Source of the DNA: a virus
IMG/VR virus record: IMGVR_UViG_3300038548_000189
Span: 1 to 40,334 of that record
Direction: 5' to 3' (one strand)
Length of the DNA: 40,334 nucleotides
The notes beneath the pieces were generated by a model. The model saw only the letters and a list, made by a program, of their open reading frames with translations, had not been told where the DNA came from and ran no database searches. A program made the translations under genes and the position numbers. Numbering within the stretch: position 1 is the stretch's first letter; every line of letters begins with the position of its first letter. This document shows positions 9,996-17,916 of the stretch, piece by piece.

Positions 9996-10174
9996 TGATT
10001 AACGCAATATTTTTCGGAGCGTTCGCACTTATTGCAAGCCTGTGGATTGCCGGAATGTTTAGCGACTTTGAATCACAGCCATTATGGGTCAGAGCTATTG
10101 TTGATTTCATATTTGCTGGTGGGTGTATTTCTGTAGTATTGGGATTTGCTTTTTTAATGTTGAGTAAAATTTAA
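9995..10174 (+). CDS. 59-residue protein with two membrane segments (possible holin)
   Basis: ATG 9995 overlaps the DUF1353 stop; the frame ends at TAA 10172-10174. Membrane segments are AIFFGAFALIASLWIAGMF (4-22) and AIVDFIFAGGCISVVLGFAF (34-53), with a polar turn (SDFESQPLWVR) between. Size, topology and position 1 kb before the M15 endolysin suit a class II-type holin, but no family is recognised. Confidence 0.55.
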   Translation: MINAIFFGAFALIASLWIAGMFSDFESQPLWVRAIVDFIFAGGCISVVLGFAFLMLSKI

Positions 10175-10186
10175 CAGGGGGACTGG

Positions 10187-10552
10187 ATGAGAGAGATTAA
10201 ATTTAGGGCTTGGAACGGTAAGGCGATGGAGCATGGTGGCTTTTCTATTAGCCCGTCAAACGGGAGGATCATAGACTCATGTATTATATCAAAAGTTAAG
10301 GATGATTCGCCGCTCATGCAATACACCGGATTAAAAGATAAGAATGGTGTGGAGATATATGAGGGGGATATATTGCGAGGGGAATACGTAGTACCCGAAG
10401 AACATTTAATATTATTTATGAGTGTTGAGTTCATTACGGGATGCTTTTGTATCAGGGATAAGTTTGGGTCAACCAATCCCCTCCATGAAGATAACGAAAC
10501 CACCGAAGTAATCGGCAACATCTACGAAAACCCAGAACTACTGGAGAAATAA
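10187..10552 (+). CDS. YopX family protein
   Basis: 121 residues. REIKFRAWNGKAMEH at the N-terminus and LMQYTGLKDKNGVEIYEGDIL (44-64) with VIGNIYENPELL near the end are the YopX signature. YopX proteins are widespread in phages and prophages with no settled function. Ribosome site AGGGGG. Confidence 0.88.
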   Translation: MREIKFRAWNGKAMEHGGFSISPSNGRIIDSCIISKVKDDSPLMQYTGLKDKNGVEIYEGDILRGEYVVPEEHLILFMSVEFITGCFCIRDKFGSTNPLHEDNETTEVIGNIYENPELLEK

Positions 10553-10555
10553 ACC

Positions 10556-10564
10556 TGCTATAAT
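10556..10564 (+). promoter_or_regulatory. Extended -10 promoter of homing-type gene 1
   Basis: TGCTATAAT, a perfect -10 in extended form, with no -35 match. Expected start near 10571, the first base of the RNA element that follows. The same arrangement precedes the second homing-type gene (15653-15661). Confidence 0.6.
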
Positions 10565-10570
10565 GATCAA

Positions 10571-10614
10571 GCGGCTAGGGTTGCAACCCGAACAACAGTT
10601 AGTCACTGTGCCGC
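10571..10614 (+). ncRNA. Three-way-junction leader RNA, copy 1
   Basis: P1 GCGGC (10571-10575)/GCCGC (10610-10614); TA; P2 GGG (10578-10580)/CCC (10587-10589); GAA (10590-10592); P3 CAGT (10596-10599)/ACTG (10605-10608) with loop TAGTC. Copy 2 at 15667-15716 keeps P1, the TA and GAA linkers and the layout, while P2 and P3 change on both sides of the pairing. Confidence 0.6.
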
Positions 10615-10649
10615 CTACGCTTCGACTACCACTGACTAAGGTTTCTATT

Positions 10650-11132
10650 ATGATTACTCAAAAAAGACTTAAAGAATTGCTATCATATAATCCTGCCACT
10701 GGAATATTTACTCGACTCAATCTGCGCGGTAACTGGACCAATGCAGGGGGCTATGATAGGCAGGGATACAGGAGAATCAATATAGACGGGGATTATTATT
10801 TCTGTCATAGGCTGGCCTTTCTTTATATGGAGGGAGATTTTCCAAAGGACGCAACAGACCACATAAATCATATTAGAGACGACAATAGGTGGTCAAACCT
10901 TCGATGCGCCGATGCCGCTCTTAATTCCAGAAACAACTCAATACGAAAAGACAATACATCTGGCGTGGTTGGTGTAACGTGGCATAAGGGCGATAAAAAA
11001 TGGCAGGCTCAAATATCATCCGGTCTTAAAAATATCTATTTAGGAAGTTTTGACAGCATAGGAACTGCGAAAAAAGTAAGGGAAGAAGCCAGCAAAAACT
11101 ACAACTACCATCCAAATCATGGGAGAGCGTAA
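10650..11132 (+). CDS. HNH-AP2 homing-type endonuclease 1
   Basis: 160 residues from ATG 10650. Residues 35-100 form an HNH_3 domain (FCHRLAFLYM, DHINHIRDDNRWSNLR: His53, Asp70-His71, Asn79). Residues 104-145 form an AP2-type DNA-binding domain (SGVVGVTWHKGDKKWQAQI, LGSF). Such genes are selfish cargo that cut DNA lacking them. It sits between the YopX and endolysin genes, carries its own promoter and leader RNA, and its 3' end supplies the endolysin ribosome site (GGGAGAG). The longer frame from 10563 would run through the leader RNA and is not used. Confidence 0.85.
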   Translation: MITQKRLKELLSYNPATGIFTRLNLRGNWTNAGGYDRQGYRRINIDGDYYFCHRLAFLYMEGDFPKDATDHINHIRDDNRWSNLRCADAALNSRNNSIRKDNTSGVVGVTWHKGDKKWQAQISSGLKNIYLGSFDSIGTAKKVREEASKNYNYHPNHGRA

Positions 11133-11485
11133 TGGGTGATTTATCGAAGCATTTCAACCGGTCAGAATTTGCCTGTCGATGTGGCTGCGGATTTGATACC
11201 GTTGATTCTGAGTTAATAAAAATCCTTGAAGAGGTGCGGGACTATTTCGCTACACCGGTTAGAATTACGTCTGGCTGTCGATGCCATGAATATAACGAGA
11301 AGATAGGCGGCGCATATAAGTCTCAGCATAAATTGGGTAGGGCGGCTGATATAGTGCTGACTGTAGAGCCTGACGTTGTTGCGGATTATCTTGCCGTTAT
11401 GGATGTCGGCGGTGTTGGTCGCTACAGCACATTCAGTCACGTGGATTCAAGAACAACGGACAGGCCAGCAAGGTGGAAGGGATGA
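11132..11485 (+). CDS. M15-family peptidase endolysin
   Basis: 117 residues, a single catalytic domain. Starts LSKHFNRSEFACRCGCG, the usual opening of phage Peptidase_M15_3 lysins. Zinc ligands: His66 and Asp73 in SQHKLGRAADI (64-74) and His103 in SHVD (102-105). It would cut peptide cross-links of peptidoglycan. There is no signal peptide, so it needs a holin; candidates are the small membrane proteins at 9995 and 12299. The ATG overlaps the previous stop by one base. Confidence 0.88.
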   Translation: MGDLSKHFNRSEFACRCGCGFDTVDSELIKILEEVRDYFATPVRITSGCRCHEYNEKIGGAYKSQHKLGRAADIVLTVEPDVVADYLAVMDVGGVGRYSTFSHVDSRTTDRPARWKG

Positions 11486-11619
11486 TAAAATTCAGAGTTA
11501 ACGGGCAGCGCTATATATTCTGGATAGCTCGAACGGATGCCGAATTGCCGACAAAAGATAATAGCTGGAAACTGCCGGAACATTTGGCGCTTATTTTAAT
11601 TAAGGAATTGAAGCGATGA
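11482..11619 (+). CDS. Small basic protein, unknown
   Basis: 45 residues. ATG 11482 overlaps the endolysin stop as ATGA and its own stop overlaps the next ATG in the same way, so translation is coupled on both sides. IKFRVNGQRYIFWIARTDAELP then a helix LPEHLALILIKELKR. Not recognised. Confidence 0.65.
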   Translation: MIKFRVNGQRYIFWIARTDAELPTKDNSWKLPEHLALILIKELKR

Positions 11620-11900
11620 CTATTGACCGTAAATTTATTATTGCAGCACAAAACCCCGTCAACGGTAAGAAATACAGCCAAGAAAATGCGCTGATACTTT
11701 GCGCCAAAGACAAGGCTGTTCCTGTTGCGCTTGAAGCATACAAACAAGAGTGTATTCGGCTGGGTTGTAATCAAGAGCACATCGAAAGTATTGGCCTGCT
11801 AATTGGCCGCGTATGCTCTTATCAAGCGAATATTGAATCACGCATTCCCGATACCATCGGTGATGAATTGAAGCGCTGTATTGATGGTGAGGGCGTTTAA
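11616..11900 (+). CDS. Conserved phage protein, unknown
   Basis: 94 residues (TIDRKFIIAAQNPVNGKKYSQENALILCAKDKAVPVALEAY, HIESIGLLIGRVCSYQ, ESRIPDTIGDELKRC). I recognise this as a recurring family in podophage genomes, with no known function. No export or membrane signal. Confidence 0.7.
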   Translation: MTIDRKFIIAAQNPVNGKKYSQENALILCAKDKAVPVALEAYKQECIRLGCNQEHIESIGLLIGRVCSYQANIESRIPDTIGDELKRCIDGEGV

Positions 11901-11947
11901 ATAATTAACCAAATCCCATAACGGGAAAGCCAACGAGGAAAGAGAGT

Positions 11948-12220
11948 ATGAAATTTGAAAGTAAATTCGGTTTAGGTGAAGTATGTATTTACAATCATAA
12001 TGTGAGTTACAAGCCGGGCAGTGTAGATGAAAGAGCGGTCGCCGATATTCTTGTTAAAATTGTAGATATTACTTTTAATACCCAGGGCATCATCTACTAC
12101 ACGATTGAACTGACTACTCAGAGCGCTGGTATTCAACGGCTAAGTGTGAACGAAAATTCTCTAACCGGTGACTCTGCTTTTGATCAGGAAGCAGGCAAGT
12201 ACCCAGAAGAAGACGAGTGA
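11948..12220 (+). CDS. Conserved phage protein, unknown
   Basis: 90 residues, beta-rich (FESKFGLGEVCIY, VKIVDITFNTQGIIYYTIELTT) with an acidic tail. Looks like a small barrel. Preceded by GAGGAAAGAGAGT. Often beside the previous family, in my recollection. Function unknown. Confidence 0.65.
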   Translation: MKFESKFGLGEVCIYNHNVSYKPGSVDERAVADILVKIVDITFNTQGIIYYTIELTTQSAGIQRLSVNENSLTGDSAFDQEAGKYPEEDE

Positions 12221-12298
12221 AACCCCTTCGCTCATGGGAGTCAGCCGTAACAGGCTGAAACTGCAATCAAGTCCTGGGGCGAATTACTGGAGATAGAG

Positions 12299-12577
12299 AT
12301 GATACTAGAATGGATAGCCACCCACGGCTCACCCGTTGACGCTGTAATTATGTTTATGGGATTTTGTGTAGTCTGGTTGATACGCTATATCGTTAACTCC
12401 CAGAAGGCTCAGAACGTGCGCCTATGGAAGGAAATAACTTCCCTGAAGTATCAGCTCAATCAAGTGGATAAATTGACCTACACGCTCAGCATATTGCACA
12501 AGCGCGATGGATTAGACCTAATTAAAGAGTCTGCCAATTCACAGGGTGATTATGGATTGAACCGGGACGTTGAGTGA
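12299..12577 (+). CDS. Single-pass membrane protein, candidate inner-membrane spanin or holin
   Basis: 92 residues. One membrane segment near the N-terminus (VDAVIMFMGFCVVWLIRYIV, 13-32) is followed by a charged helical stretch (NSQKAQNVRLWKEITSLKYQLNQVDKLTYTLSIL). N-terminal anchor plus helix is the layout of an i-spanin, and it lies 0.8 kb after the endolysin, but no outer-membrane partner is nested in it. The 78 bases upstream hold a TCAGCC/GGCTGA hairpin (12241-12258). Confidence 0.55.
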   Translation: MILEWIATHGSPVDAVIMFMGFCVVWLIRYIVNSQKAQNVRLWKEITSLKYQLNQVDKLTYTLSILHKRDGLDLIKESANSQGDYGLNRDVE

Positions 12578-12978
12578 TGGCTGATCCATTCCACAATACA
12601 AAAGCATGGCGGGAACTAGCCAAGCGGTTTAAGCATCCCCGCTGTGTTGATTGCGATGGCAAGGAAGACCTTCAGGCTGGTCATATACTACCCGCTAGCC
12701 GATTTAAGATGGCGCGGCTATGGAAGTCTAACCTCGTCAATCAATGCGGCCCCTGTAATGCCAAGCTGGGCAATAAGATACGCTGGTCGCTACGGGCCGT
12801 TAAACTACTGAGCATCTACGCAATGATAAAATTTCTTACCTATTTAATAACAATTCTTATTATTGCCTCATTGGCCCGGTATGCCTATTTAGATATTACC
12901 TATAACAGCTCAACCATTACCGATCAGATTGAATCCGATATTATCGAAATCTACCGAACCCTTAACAGGGATGTATAA
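12577..12978 (+). CDS. HNH nuclease domain fused to a membrane segment
   Basis: 133 residues. An HNH domain occupies 8-66: Cys23-x2-Cys26 (CVDC), GHILPASRF (His36), NLVNQCGPCNAKLGN (Asn52, Cys57, Cys60, Asn61). Residues 83-104 (MIKFLTYLITILIIASLARYAY) form one membrane segment, then an acidic tail. A nuclease tied to the membrane is unusual. A read-through fusion of an HNH gene with a small membrane (lysis or exclusion) protein is one explanation. ATG 12577 and GTG 12574 are both possible starts. Confidence 0.7.
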   Translation: MADPFHNTKAWRELAKRFKHPRCVDCDGKEDLQAGHILPASRFKMARLWKSNLVNQCGPCNAKLGNKIRWSLRAVKLLSIYAMIKFLTYLITILIIASLARYAYLDITYNSSTITDQIESDIIEIYRTLNRDV

Positions 12979-12979
12979 A

Positions 12980-13627
12980 ATGAAAATAGTAATAATCGCA
13001 TTGGCTTTTGTACTAGCATCGTGCAGTAGTGGATCAAGCACGCCCGAAGATACCGAACCAGTCAATCAATTAACCAGGATCGCATTCTTTGGCAATAGCA
13101 TAACGGCTCATCACCCGGCCCCTCATATTGGCTGGCAGGGCAACTGGGGCATGGCCGCTAGCATGGAGTCTCTGGACTATGTTAATCAGACTGCTAGATT
13201 ACTGGGGGCCATAGAGTTTCAGACGTTCAGCGCAATAGCCTGGGAGAAAAATATCGAGGCCTACGATGTCAATGAGCTCAAGCCGATGACTGACTATAAT
13301 GCCGATCTGGTGATAGCGAATATTGGCGAGAATATCAAAAGCACACATTCGATTGAGAGTGTTAAAAGTCAACTGCTAATGCTAAAGAACTATATCTATG
13401 ATCACAGTGATTCAGAGCTAGTCATTGTCAACTCATACTACGGCGGGCATAGGGTTAACACCGCTATTGCTGAGTTCTGCCTGGAGCATGGCTTGATAAT
13501 GGTCGACGTTGGGGATATGCGGGCTCATTACAGCGCTTCAGACTTCTTTGATAACTACGCTGTTGGAAGTCACCCATCGGATGCGGGAATGCTCGAAATA
13601 GCCAATAGGATAGTTAACGCGCTATGA
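12980..13627 (+). CDS. SGNH/GDSL-hydrolase-like lipoprotein
   Basis: 215 residues from ATG 12980 (AGGG nine bases upstream). Signal peptide MKIVIIALAFVLASC with lipobox LASC (Cys15), so it should be lipid-anchored in the cell envelope. SGNH block I is FFGNSITA (Ser40), block III-like IANIGEN (112-118), block V VGSHPSDAG (His198). The Asp usually three residues before the His is Val195, so the site may be a dyad or inactive. SGNH esterases often remove acetyl groups from surface sugars. It is the last gene of the rightward operon, tail to tail with the tailspike. Confidence 0.75.
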   Translation: MKIVIIALAFVLASCSSGSSTPEDTEPVNQLTRIAFFGNSITAHHPAPHIGWQGNWGMAASMESLDYVNQTARLLGAIEFQTFSAIAWEKNIEAYDVNELKPMTDYNADLVIANIGENIKSTHSIESVKSQLLMLKNYIYDHSDSELVIVNSYYGGHRVNTAIAEFCLEHGLIMVDVGDMRAHYSASDFFDNYAVGSHPSDAGMLEIANRIVNAL

Positions 13628-15637
13628 CTCACTCCATACATCAGAACCACCAAATACCCACGTTACCGCTTCATTCTGTGGGATGGTGACAGTTGCGGCG
13701 CCTTTGTTATAAATCCCGCTAGTTGGGTTGTGGAGTATATCCATAGAAAAAACACTGTTGTTGAGTATCGTTAATCTATGCCCTTTTGCGAAGTCTTTAG
13801 CGCTCGCCACTGGAGGCGCGAACTCATTAACCTCTACACCCCCGGCAGTTGGAGCAGGTCGGACAAAGCTATAGCCATCACCCGCCTGGTTAGCAGGGAT
13901 GGTGAGCGTGTTGCCTGTTCCGGTTAGTGCTGGCTCTGAAACACCGTTGTTGGGACTTCCCACTCCAAATACTGTAGCAATCCTCGACCCCAGGACATTC
14001 ACATCACCGGTATTATTATAGGTAATGCCACCTATTTTCGCGGTTGTGAAGTTTAATATAATGCTCAAGTCATCAATACGAGACTTACTAGTGTTCGTAC
14101 CAATAAAACAGGATGCGTCCATAGTGCCCTGCGTGGCTGAGGCTTCGTAATTAATAAACAGGGATTCAATATTTAAGTCGTCTGTATCGCCGTTACCTTC
14201 AACACGCAATCCGAATACCTGGGTGCCCTCAGTAACCACGCTGCCAATATTTACGTTGAATATAGGCGCTATGCTGCTAGAGCCTGTGTCAATGCCCAAA
14301 TCTTTTGATTGTGAGTTTTTGCTCAAGATAGTATCGATGCTTATATTTCGTAGCTCAACACCACTTGCACCACACTGGAGTAAGACGTTCTCCTCGGCCC
14401 CATCTGATTTAACATGGCCTATTTGTACATCTCGAAGGCCAGCATCACTACTCTGAATATGGAAGCCGCGCTTCTGAGCTGCATTACAATCACAAATAAC
14501 ACGCTGAATAGATACATCACGGCATATACCAAAGGCTATATCCGATTTCAGCAATACGCCAGACTCATCATTTTCTATTGTGTTAATCAATCCAAGGTTA
14601 ACGTTTTGACATTTGCTCACAAAGCCGAAGTTGCCAAAAACCCCCAAAAGGTTATCCCCTGTGTGCTTTTGAAAGCTTTGGAATAATAACGCATGGCGCG
14701 GAACACTTGCTGTCTTACATAAGCCGACTATATTCTCAGTGTGTAAGTGACCGCCGGCGTTCAGCGTTGTAGCCGATACACGCAAGGCATCAGCCTCCGC
14801 CGCCGCCGAGGCAGAGCCAACATCTACGCCGAAGTCTCTAAAATCTGCGTTATCACATGTGAAAGGAAATGAGCCATCAATAATTGATCCGTTCTCTAAT
14901 GCGGTTTTGCCACTATTAACTTGCGGCATTGAATTTCCATACACCCTTACATCTGTTTCAGCTATTACCGTCCCATCATAAAAGTAACGCTTATCCTGCA
15001 GTCTAACCGGTGAGCCTGCCGCGAATACTATAGCCGCTCTAATAGCGATGCTGTCTCCGGCCCTTGTTCCATCAGTCCCGAATTGATCAAGGTTAATGAC
15101 GCCTTTAGGGAATAAGCCTTTAGCCTGTAATCCGTTATCTAAATTAATAAATGATCCGTTGTCAGCTGTACCTGTTCCGCCTGCTACAATTTCATACTGA
15201 TTATCACCGTCATCACCGTTTGACTGATGCCCCACAGTATCAACAAAGTCACCAATAACCAGGGAGGTATTAGCAACCACCGCAGCGACTAAAACACCGC
15301 CGACCTGATTGGGTAATATTTGGAGAAAATCAACATCATCGGCTAGTTGAATAGCGTTGCTGGTATCGTTGGCGTCTGCCTCTGCTGCTGTGGGGAATAT
15401 ATAAGCATCGTAAGCCTCATCCACATAAGGGATAAACGTCACATTACCGGCTGTCTTAATCAGTCCCAAAGGAGGCGTTGGGCCCGCTGAAATCTCAGCC
15501 TTGGCTACAGTAGGAGTGCCTGTTTTATTGGTCGCCATCACAATGGGCGTAGTCGTGCCCTGCTCATAAAGCTTAAGCCAGTAGTTTGGATAATCTTCCA
15601 TGAAGTCCGATATAAACTGAATTGGTGCAAGGGCCAT
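13622..15637 (-). CDS. Tailspike protein
   Basis: 671 residues. Residues 1-105 (QFISDFMEDYPNYWLKLYEQGTTTPIVMATNK, GNVTFIPYVDEAYDAYIFPT) resemble the P22-type particle-binding head. A linker leads to GVINLDQFGTDGTRAGDSIAIRAAI (about 180-205), the usual entry into a right-handed beta-helix, which fills most of the rest with repeating short strands. The C-terminus is a small beta domain ending TWVFGGSDVWSES. Such spikes bind and often cleave surface polysaccharide. The stop overlaps the opposing lipoprotein gene by six bases and no terminator separates them. Confidence 0.85.
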   Translation of the reverse strand: MALAPIQFISDFMEDYPNYWLKLYEQGTTTPIVMATNKTGTPTVAKAEISAGPTPPLGLIKTAGNVTFIPYVDEAYDAYIFPTAAEADANDTSNAIQLADDVDFLQILPNQVGGVLVAAVVANTSLVIGDFVDTVGHQSNGDDGDNQYEIVAGGTGTADNGSFINLDNGLQAKGLFPKGVINLDQFGTDGTRAGDSIAIRAAIVFAAGSPVRLQDKRYFYDGTVIAETDVRVYGNSMPQVNSGKTALENGSIIDGSFPFTCDNADFRDFGVDVGSASAAAEADALRVSATTLNAGGHLHTENIVGLCKTASVPRHALLFQSFQKHTGDNLLGVFGNFGFVSKCQNVNLGLINTIENDESGVLLKSDIAFGICRDVSIQRVICDCNAAQKRGFHIQSSDAGLRDVQIGHVKSDGAEENVLLQCGASGVELRNISIDTILSKNSQSKDLGIDTGSSSIAPIFNVNIGSVVTEGTQVFGLRVEGNGDTDDLNIESLFINYEASATQGTMDASCFIGTNTSKSRIDDLSIILNFTTAKIGGITYNNTGDVNVLGSRIATVFGVGSPNNGVSEPALTGTGNTLTIPANQAGDGYSFVRPAPTAGGVEVNEFAPPVASAKDFAKGHRLTILNNSVFSMDILHNPTSGIYNKGAATVTIPQNEAVTWVFGGSDVWSES

Positions 15638-15652
15638 ATTAGACTCCGGTTA

Positions 15653-15661
15653 TGTTATGAT
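15653..15661 (+). promoter_or_regulatory. Extended -10 promoter of homing-type gene 2
   Basis: TGTTATGAT, an extended -10 with one mismatch in the hexamer and no -35 match. Start expected near 15667-15668, at the first base of the RNA element, as in copy 1. Confidence 0.5.
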
Positions 15662-15666
15662 TTGCG

Positions 15667-15716
15667 TATGCGGCTAGGAGGCATCCGAAGCCGGTTTTAT
15701 CAACCGTTGCCGCATA
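15667..15716 (+). ncRNA. Three-way-junction leader RNA, copy 2
   Basis: P1 TATGCGGC (15667-15674)/GCCGCATA (15709-15716), eight perfect pairs; TA; P2 GGA (15677-15679)/TCC (15684-15686) with loop GGCA; GAA (15687-15689); P3 CGGTT (15692-15696)/AACCG (15702-15706) with loop TTATC. The layout and linkers equal copy 1 at 10571-10614, with compensatory changes in P2 and P3. Confidence 0.65.
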
Positions 15717-15748
15717 AATCAATGATACCTTAGATAGAGGCTTAAACA

Positions 15749-16270
15749 ATGTTAGCAAGAAAAGACCTGCCATCCCAAGAATACCTGAAAGACCTGTTTT
15801 CATACTCTGACACCAACAAGGCCATGCCGCTTACATATAAGAAGCGGCCTAAATACGCCTACGCCATAACTATTGGTGATAATGCCGGAAGCCTGGATAC
15901 AAGCTGCGGATATTACAGGGTAAGAATAAAAGGCAGCCTTTATAAACTTCATAGAATTATATTTAAGTATCACAATGGATGGTGCCCAGATGAGATAGAC
16001 CATGAGGACTGCGATAAAAGCAACAACCTTATCGGTAATCTGCGCACAACCACTTCTAGCCAAAATGTCCACTCCAGAGGGCTTACTATATCCAACACAA
16101 GCGGCTACAAGGGCGTGTCCTTTGTCCCGCATCTCAATAAATATAAGTCTCAAATTAGGATAAATGATGAGCTTATCTATCTTGGAGTATTCCATACGCC
16201 ACAAGACGCCCATAAAGCCTATGCCAATAAAGCAACAGAGATTCACGGTGATTATGCCAATACTGGATAA
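15749..16270 (+). CDS. HNH-AP2 homing-type endonuclease 2
   Basis: 173 residues. HNH_3 domain at 55-110 (LYKLHRIIFKYHNGWCPDEIDHEDCDKSNNLIGNLR: His68, Asp84-His85, Asn92) and AP2-type domain at 117-165 (SGYKGVSFVPHLNKYKSQI, YLGVFHTPQDAHKAY). It is the only rightward gene inside the 26-kb leftward unit, wedged between the tailspike and ejection genes, which marks it as inserted cargo. Ribosome site GAGG, with its own promoter and leader RNA. Confidence 0.87.
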   Translation: MLARKDLPSQEYLKDLFSYSDTNKAMPLTYKKRPKYAYAITIGDNAGSLDTSCGYYRVRIKGSLYKLHRIIFKYHNGWCPDEIDHEDCDKSNNLIGNLRTTTSSQNVHSRGLTISNTSGYKGVSFVPHLNKYKSQIRINDELIYLGVFHTPQDAHKAYANKATEIHGDYANTG

Positions 16271-16293
16271 GCCCTGTGCTGCGCCATATGCCA

Positions 16294-17916
16294 TTACTGC
16301 TCTCCCTGTATGGCTGTTGGGGCTACCGATCCTATTGATCTACCTATAATACGCCTTCCCTCCGCCATCTCCGCGGCCTCCCTAATCAACTTATTTGAAC
16401 TATCAATCATGTTGGATAAATCAATAGTGGGGTCGGATAATAATTCTGATAATTGTGTGGCGCTCTGCTTATTTCTTGGAATTGAATTTAAGTAAGCTCT
16501 AGTGATTTTCTTACCATCAGTCCCGGCCCTCGTCATACTGTCAACAAACTTTGCCCTCTTGGTTGTTAGTGTCTTAGCTATCTGCTTGGAAATAGTACCC
16601 ACTATAGGAACAACGATAGCGCCCGTACTCCCCCCGATAACCGTACCTAGCCCACCACCCGCGACAATAGAGGCAAATACATTGGGTGATCTATCAATTG
16701 AAAGCCCCACCTTACCAACAAGCCTTGTCATATTTTGGGAAAAATCACCCTTAATAACATCGCGCATCAATGCCTTTTCCTCGGCAGGAATGAACTTTGA
16801 CATCTTTTTGTTTCTTAATATCCGGTTAAATTCGTTTCTTATTCCAGCCTCTGCGCCTGCTGCTACATCCTGGCCGCGGGTAATAGCCTCTTGAATAACC
16901 TCTGATCGTCTAGCTCTACCCCATAAAGTCCGTGCAGCCTTATACTTTCCAGCTACCTCTGAGGCCGGTATATCGCCTTTCGTTAATGCGCTTGGCCGTA
17001 CTTGATCTAGGAACCCATCAATCTCATTAATCATTTGGACGCCTAAAGACGCCTCTGTTGGGTCAATGTTTTTAGCTACGTTTTGAGCGACTTTTCTTAA
17101 CGTGTCAATCTCGGTCAGTGTGGGCGAAGTGCCAACAACATCATCCAGTGCGGCAATAGCGCCCGCGGCTTTTGGTGTCACTCTCGCATCAAGGCCCTGC
17201 TTTCTTGTCTCCCGCTTAATTCTTCGCACCATCCCGCGGAAGTCTTTTGACTTCATCCTGATCCCAGAGTTATCAAGATCATCATAAATAGTTCGTGCCG
17301 CGGTCTTAATTGCCTCGGCATCCGGTGCAGCTTCTCGAATGGCTTTATTAATCGCACTATCTGACGGCTGTATGCGTTTAGTTGACTTTGCAAACCTCCC
17401 GCCAGCACCAAAACCAAAAACCTCAAGCAATGCCGTCGGTGCCGTAGTGGCAAGAGCCGCGGCAGCAGGGCTACCGGTAGCCTCAAATGCAGCCTCGCCT
17501 AACGTAGTTTCAGCCGCCTGCAATACCTCGCCAACAGGCTGTAAAAACTCGCCAGTAGCCTGTAATGCTTGCCGTCCTGCTTCCGTTCTTGGCTCGAAGG
17601 TTAATCGCTCTCTAACGCCAGAAACAACTTCAGCAGCCGCGGCAGGGTCTTGAGTTAATAATCCAGTGGCTAGCCCAGCAATCCCCGCGGCAGGCTCGGC
17701 AATCGCACCAGACGCAATAGTTGCGGCAGTTTCCAGCCCGCCTATAATTTGGTCGCCTATCCCCGCTTGTCGAACATCATCAACAGCAGGAGCAGGACTA
17801 ACGGCAGTATCTCCACTTTGAGCCCCCAATACTTGTTGCTCAACAGCAAAGCCGGGCGGCATAACCAGTGCGGTAGTTTGTTGTTGAATTTCAAAGCCTT
17901 CCGGTAAAGTCGCCAT
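16294..17916 (-). CDS. DNA ejection protein (P22 gp16-like position)
   Basis: 540 residues. Opens with two related units, LPEGFEIQQQ and MPPGFAVEQQ, then an Ala/Gly-rich region (AATIASGAIAEPAAGIAGLATGLL) and a long helical part, and near 420 a glycine-rich hydrophobic stretch (FASIVAGGGLGTVIGGSTGAIVVPIVG) that could enter a membrane. Composition, length and place as third of three consecutive genes match podophage ejection proteins expelled into the envelope. No lysozyme motif is seen. Confidence 0.7.
   Translation of the reverse strand: MATLPEGFEIQQQTTALVMPPGFAVEQQVLGAQSGDTAVSPAPAVDDVRQAGIGDQIIGGLETAATIASGAIAEPAAGIAGLATGLLTQDPAAAAEVVSGVRERLTFEPRTEAGRQALQATGEFLQPVGEVLQAAETTLGEAAFEATGSPAAAALATTAPTALLEVFGFGAGGRFAKSTKRIQPSDSAINKAIREAAPDAEAIKTAARTIYDDLDNSGIRMKSKDFRGMVRRIKRETRKQGLDARVTPKAAGAIAALDDVVGTSPTLTEIDTLRKVAQNVAKNIDPTEASLGVQMINEIDGFLDQVRPSALTKGDIPASEVAGKYKAARTLWGRARRSEVIQEAITRGQDVAAGAEAGIRNEFNRILRNKKMSKFIPAEEKALMRDVIKGDFSQNMTRLVGKVGLSIDRSPNVFASIVAGGGLGTVIGGSTGAIVVPIVGTISKQIAKTLTTKRAKFVDSMTRAGTDGKKITRAYLNSIPRNKQSATQLSELLSDPTIDLSNMIDSSNKLIREAAEMAEGRRIIGRSIGSVAPTAIQGEQ

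Follow-up and report, generated by a model that had tools for sequence, protein, structure and literature searches.

Two leader elements in one viral genome

What is the role of an RNA element that precedes two HNH genes, DNA-cutting and probably mobile, of the same viral genome? The window (the whole stretch of DNA analysed, a virus record of 40,334 bases) encodes terminase, portal, major head and baseplate-type proteins. A first-pass annotation had placed a -10 box and the order P1-UA-P2-GAA-P3 before both HNH genes, which is borne out by the sequence, by folding and by matches to a covariance model (R1, described below); it overlooked that the loop of P3 (L3) can pair with two strands further downstream (S1 and S2) and that the Shine-Dalgarno sequence (SD) lies inside a hairpin (P4). 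The features of the two sites are as follows.

Site 1
10556-10564, + strand: extended -10 box TGCTATAAT (from the sequence; position enriched in relatives)
10571-10614, + strand: three-way junction (folding, R1 match, covariation in relatives)
10571-10575/10610-10614, + strand: P1, GCGGC/GCCGC, the 5' strand followed by TA
10578-10581/10586-10589, + strand: P2, GGGU/ACCC hairpin
10590-10592, + strand: GAA between P2 and P3
10595-10599/10605-10609, + strand: P3, ACAGT/ACTGT hairpin
10599-10605, + strand: L3 with closing pair, TTAGTCA, putative anti-SD, complementary to S1 and S2
10624-10628, + strand: S1, GACTA, putative decoy, pseudoknot with L3 (S1 covaries in relatives)
10633-10639, + strand: S2, TGACTAA, seven pairs with L3 (S2 covaries in relatives)
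10637-10641, + strand: SD, TAAGG, into which S2 runs
10628-10642, + strand: P4, ACC/GGT hairpin around S2 and SD (P4 covaries in relatives)
10650-11132, + strand: HNH-AP2 gene 1, 160 aa (Pfam HNH_3, E 7e-11; AP2, E 8e-5; PHROG 99)

Site 2
15653-15661, + strand: extended -10 box TGTTATGAT (from the sequence)
15667-15716, + strand: three-way junction (folding, R1 match, R2 match)
15667-15674/15709-15716, + strand: P1, TATGCGGC/GCCGCATA, the 5' strand followed by TA
15677-15679/15684-15686, + strand: P2, GGA/TCC
15687-15689, + strand: GAA between P2 and P3
15692-15696/15702-15706, + strand: P3, CGGTT/AACCG
15696-15702, + strand: L3 with closing pair, TTTATCA, complementary to S1 and S2
15723-15727, + strand: S1, TGATA, pseudoknot with L3
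15733-15738, + strand: S2, GATAGA, pairs with L3 and overlaps the SD
15737-15740, + strand: SD, GAGG, within P4
15728-15740, + strand: P4, CCTT/GAGG hairpin, weak, containing the SD
15749-16270, + strand: HNH gene 2, 173 aa (Pfam HNH_3, E 1e-11, AP2 part undetected by Pfam; PHROG 99)

The minimum-energy fold of both sites is the three-way junction described. Its energy is moderately unusual at most (z of -1.25 at site 1 and -2.36 at site 2) and was dropped as proof, being too weak for site 1; the case for an RNA therefore rests on comparison. Both copies contain L3, S1, S2, P4 and an SD. P4 is weak in each of them. A blastn search of positions 10001-17000 against phages returned matches only to YopX and to the HNH N-terminus, and HNH protein 2 returned no relatives among viral contigs.

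Relatives and identity of the element

A loose pattern made from both sites yielded at least 120 matches in IMG/VR viral contigs; among the matches listed, lengths cluster at 46-48 nt (the pattern permits 37-57) and most elements sit a few tens of bases 5' of a start codon. The covariance model R1, built from 43 relatives, finds exactly two sites in the window, at 34.4 bits (E 1e-7) and 24.8 bits (E 5e-5), the next-best match scoring 8.4 bits; this result is partly circular, because the seeds of R1 came through the pattern made from the window. A second covariance model (R2), constructed without window sequence and with P1 mostly left free, matches site 2 at E 3e-4 and site 1 only at E 0.32 (the E-values of these models are rough), indicating that site 1 has diverged further than site 2. 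The covariance searches took the place of a DNA pattern with a fixed P1, which gave five matches in genome contigs.

Rfam, at its own thresholds, has no match anywhere in the window. Against int-alpA RNA (RF02996; Rfam gathering threshold 35.8 bits), site 1 scores 12.6 bits and site 2 has no match, and the window copies are therefore filed as divergent relatives and not as members. Four relatives found with the window pattern exceed the RF02996 cut-off (L009 at 44.9, L126 at 44.6, L016 at 46.7 and L117 at 45.2 bits), and the Rfam alignment displays the layout found here. The likeness to int-alpA extends to the junction order, to the core (UAG and CGAAAAG) and to a strand further downstream that complements L3; the window copies have the same junction order, the UA and GAA core, and an L3 complementary to sequence 3' of P1. 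As judged from sequence, they are divergent relatives of int-alpA, linked to it by intermediates. The entry itself is typed as an sRNA and its model stops at the S1 strand, whereas the window copies and their relatives are 5' leaders with S2, P4 and an SD, and stand ahead of many genes. This RNA, reportedly described by Weinberg et al. 2017, was presumably first described as sitting between integrase and alpA genes; the window copies lie elsewhere, before HNH genes. It is to our knowledge an orphan motif without an assigned function, and our literature search found it named in one paper only, as a table entry, and found nothing closer among comparable phage leader RNAs. Other Rfam matches below threshold (Bacillus-plasmid at site 1; HOTAIRM1, GNAS-AS1 and SNORA47 at site 2) were weak and are attributed to chance.

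Conservation of the junction and its promoter

From the two sites it had been claimed that sequence changes while pairing is kept, and covariation of P1 and P3 across 75 relatives upholds this. In that set 83.8% of cells are paired in the structure; shuffling lowers the share to 59.9%, and sliding the structure along the sequences lowers it to 34-51%. Covariation scores 0.568, compared with 0.148 for shuffled data. P1 is complementary in 124 of the 129 non-redundant matches although the search did not constrain it, and over 30 distinct inner sequences occur among them (redundancy was cut at 80% similarity, and residual kinship also raises shuffled scores). Single column pairs of P1 are filled by as many as five or six kinds of Watson-Crick or wobble pair. 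Amid these variable helices the bases of the junction (the UA/GAA core) are near-invariant. Palindromes are over-represented in the P2 loop, and were considered as a possible dimer contact.

A near-consensus -10 box lies at most 30 nt upstream of P1 in 63 of 156 relatives, mostly 6-10 nt from it; control windows give 3-13 of about 153. This enrichment places the predicted transcription start at P1, in support of the first-pass annotation, which had predicted that the transcript begins there.

Competing pairings of the P3 loop

Downstream of the junction, S1 lies about 9-11 nt past P1, and S2 lies 4-10 nt ahead of the start codon, at or adjoining the SD; S2 and the SD sit inside P4, which ends at the start codon. 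The distance from P1 to the start codon has a median of 35 nt (a start was found in 166 of 170 elements, by mechanical calls). We compared the complementarity of L3 with each strand against a control in which partners were shuffled among sequences. In the set found by the pattern, L3-S1 complementarity averages 14.72, against 8.99 shuffled (standard deviation [sd] 0.18; z 32), and L3-S2 complementarity, the weaker of the two, averages 13.19, against 9.78 (sd 0.18; z 19), whereas coding windows at +3 to +20 and +30 to +47 and an upstream window carry no signal (z of 1.0, 0.3 and -0.6). The same two signals recur (z of 9.8 for L3-S1 and 7.2 for L3-S2) in an independent set of 25 elements, taken from the R2 search of Pseudomonadota genomes and from named phages. 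P4 covaries as well (10.11, against 7.87 partner-shuffled; sd 0.16).

Both pairings are present in 119 of 152 elements, and S1 alone in 27 of them. Where both occur they overlap on L3 by at least 3 nt in all except four (115 of 119), and are thus mutually exclusive. The S1 pairing is shifted to the 3' side of L3 in 76% and to the 5' side in 7%. An overlap of 2 nt or more between the S2 pairing and the SD is seen in 84 of 130 elements; in the other 46 it is 1 nt or none. The S1 and S2 duplexes have correlated energies (r 0.65, partly trivially so because L3 is common to both), which lie within 2 kcal/mol of each other in 59%. S1 forms the stronger duplex in 64% of relatives, whereas both window copies favour S2 over S1 (-7.4 versus -5.6 and -5.0 versus -3.3 kcal/mol). 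The exclusive SD-exposing and SD-hiding structures expected of a riboswitch are thus found, by covariation only; for the predicted double-pairing anatomy of S1, S2 and P4 we found no earlier description.

Genes behind the element

Among 148 downstream proteins, Pfam identifies HNH_3 in 16, AP2 in seven, Endonuclease VII in six, DUF1376 in five, NUMOD4, HNH and HNH_5 in four each, KilA-N and Rha in three each and GIY-YIG in two (the counts are not additive, since some families co-occur in one protein). Compared with 148 other open reading frames (ORFs) of the same loci (HNH in five, HNH_5 in four, HNH_3 in two), endonucleases are enriched behind the element, clearly so for HNH_3 (16 versus two); most of the genes that follow the element are of a different or an unknown kind. 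Many mutually unrelated genes of phages and prophages stand behind it. Among named phages, it stands before a Seg-like GIY-YIG gene between the capsid and connector genes (Rhizobium phage RHph_X2_25), ahead of a Rha gene (Acinetobacter phage Ab105-2phi), ahead of an HNH gene (phage D6E, whose host is absent from the record) and ahead of a small ORF (a P22-like phage). Such locations are typical for inserted accessory genes.

The first-pass annotation had suggested that the RNA travels with the mobile gene, and had proposed a covariance-model search for further copies ahead of HNH-AP2 genes in other phages. The element does occur before HNH genes elsewhere, in D6E, at L024 and L126, and in Thalassomonas phage BA3, where it lies directly upstream (41.9 bits) of a gene whose product shares 45% identity with the first HNH protein of the window and where L3, S1, S2 and P4 are all readable in the layout seen in the window. 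However, 16 of 18 loci with HNH relatives lack an element at E < 0.1, several of these relatives beginning inside or against the preceding gene; at L007 an element lies upstream at a distance of 383 nt from the HNH start, and no gene is evident behind it. With only one of the 18 loci having an element directly upstream, the RNA is a shared leader and not a fixed partner of HNH genes: mobile-type genes do follow it, and the notion of a package bound to HNH-AP2 is rejected.

A probable translational switch and its alternatives

A loop that covaries both with a nearby strand and with the SD is most simply accounted for by competition between an anti-SD and an anti-anti-SD. On this ground we regard the element as a 5' leader RNA, of the int-alpA family in its wider sense, that probably acts in cis on the translation of the gene behind it, and our best reading, held with the same moderate confidence, is a cis-acting translational switch of accessory and mobile phage genes; the earlier suggestion that the RNA may set translation becomes probable through the pairing of L3 at the SD. 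In such a switch L3 would be the anti-SD, S1 the anti-anti-SD (decoy) and S2 the SD strand: with L3 on S1 the SD would be open, or weakly held by P4, and the gene translated, and with L3 on S2 the SD would be closed. Because S1 leaves the polymerase first, a fresh transcript would begin as L3:S1 in most relatives, and the stronger L3:S2 duplex of the window copies suggests a tighter OFF state there. The balance between the pairings would be set by the junction core or its binding partner. A switch common to unrelated genes points to a common signal, and since the downstream proteins are unrelated the trigger should be one common to infected cells and not the encoded protein; candidates are a small molecule, an ion, a host or ribosomal protein, or the timing of folding.

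A riboswitch in the strict sense, in which the core binds a metabolite or ion altered by infection and so selects L3:S1 over L3:S2, is one form of such a switch (so that the likelihoods given to the two overlap), and we consider it possible but somewhat unlikely: the near-invariant junction bases among variable helices and the anti-SD/anti-anti-SD platform speak in its favour, but the nucleases, regulators and unknown proteins downstream include no single-pathway enzymes or transporters that would hint at a ligand. A role in stability or standby, with the pseudoknotted 5' junction protecting the mRNA or offering the ribosome standby for a closed SD, would suit the position of P1 at the predicted 5' end, the strength of the L3:S1 signal (the strongest found) and a topology resembling flavivirus xrRNA; it leaves the complementarity of L3 to S2 unexplained, and we judge it unlikely.

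The remaining explanations fare worse. That L3, which is C-rich, might serve as the seed of a trans-acting sRNA aimed at the SDs of other mRNAs agrees with the Rfam type (Gene; sRNA) but sits badly with a start codon so close downstream and with covariation of L3 with its own S1 and S2 and no fixed target, which makes it improbable. Binding of the leader by the encoded endonuclease, raised by the first-pass annotation and suggested by an RNA common to two related HNH genes in the window, is very improbable as a general function, since the same RNA precedes GIY-YIG, Endonuclease VII, Rha, KilA-N and DUF1376 genes. Chance, or repeats acting at the DNA level (an operator or homing site) that mimic an RNA, can be given hardly any weight: inverted repeats could be protein sites, but compensatory changes in P1, P3, S1, S2 and P4 recur across many lineages and the orientation towards the start codon is fixed. 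Nor did self-cleavage, proposed earlier as something to check, find any footing: the junction order of the hammerhead differs from that of this element, Rfam has no ribozyme match in the window, and the hammerhead and other known ribozymes were rejected as candidates.

Comparison with known systems

Hairpins that sequester the ribosome binding site (RBS) are known for the homing endonucleases I-TevI, Aeh1 mobE and T4 segB, where they are thought to limit early translation; these are plain hairpins, some with an internal late promoter (PMC3014915). They provide a precedent for limiting translation of such genes, and the likeness is that a homing-endonuclease gene has its SD covered by structure: P4 likewise holds the SD in a hairpin beside the start codon, weakly in the window copies. 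The present element differs in its conserved junction, in two competing loop pairings and in the many gene families it precedes; the conserved junction, decoy strand and range of genes are new relative to known RBS hairpins. The tisB mRNA has a 5' pseudoknot and a standby site for a closed SD, and thus resembles the element in combining a near-5' structure, a pseudoknot and a sequestered RBS in one mRNA (PMC7708055). It differs in being a single gene with an extended leader. We know of no competing decoy strand in tisB. Flavivirus xrRNAs and some riboswitches have a three-way junction in which the P3 loop pairs with a strand 3' of P1; the likeness is one of topology, in a different setting, and no sequence kinship with xrRNAs or with three-way-junction pseudoknot riboswitches was detected.

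The double covariation offers a concrete, testable mechanism, which would move int-alpA from 'sRNA' to translational control in cis and, if true, would account for the way in which mobile genes inserted into phage operons carry control of their own expression. According to a review of T4, no riboswitch had been functionally characterised in that phage (PMC3014915). As a tentative proposal only, the element may represent a new class of phage translational riboswitch, in which an aptamer-like junction, carried as a portable cassette, would answer a signal of infection while the anti-SD loop and decoy strand vary freely, serving homing endonucleases and other mobile genes.

Distribution in bacterial genomes

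The fourteen control genomes contain zero copies of the element, and at least one copy (E 1e-4) is present in 22 of 249 sampled genomes of Pseudomonadota, the phylum of Pantoea septica, a species with six matches to RF02996, three of which fall within 5 kb.

P2 loop palindromes

Among relatives of the three-way-junction leader element, 11 of the 21 distinct 7-nt P2 loops carry a 4-nt palindrome at their centre (AGCT, GATC, AATT or GGCC), compared with an expected 3.9 ± 1.7. These palindromes could mediate loop-loop dimers, or some other contact.

Surroundings of the element

The features around the two window copies (sites 1 and 2, each ahead of an HNH gene), and one further copy at another locus (L007), are as follows.

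Window 10187-10552: YopX family gene, directly 5' of site 1
Window 12574-12978: ORF between both HNH genes, with weak similarity to HNH_5 (E 0.006) and NinG (E 0.009)
Window 13622-15637, minus strand: 671-aa protein, weakly similar to the C-terminal domain of a phage depolymerase
L007:1542-1650: element copy with different P1 letters, TGTGCC/GGCACA

The 3' end of the YopX family gene lies 4 nt from the site 1 -10 box that follows it, and the 671-aa protein starts just ahead of the site 2 promoter, on the opposite strand. The leader element is absent at the ORF between the HNH genes.

In the L007 copy the P3 loop is CCACTAAT, and the strand ATTAGTGG is present twice; no clear gene was found behind the element at this locus, where an HNH gene starts 383 nt downstream of it. 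A near-identical element is common to a group of contigs (L018, L035, L043, L047 and L053), with genes for FLxRVLGxxGYY-type proteins downstream; in most of these elements, pairing of the P3 loop with the strand just 3' of P1 (S1) and with that at or near the Shine-Dalgarno (S2) is poor or absent.

The Pantoea septica genome (G004) holds six matches of the RF02996 (int-alpA RNA) type in total, three of them (L361, L362 and L365) inside 5 kb of contig C7, and two of these three exceed the Rfam cut-off.
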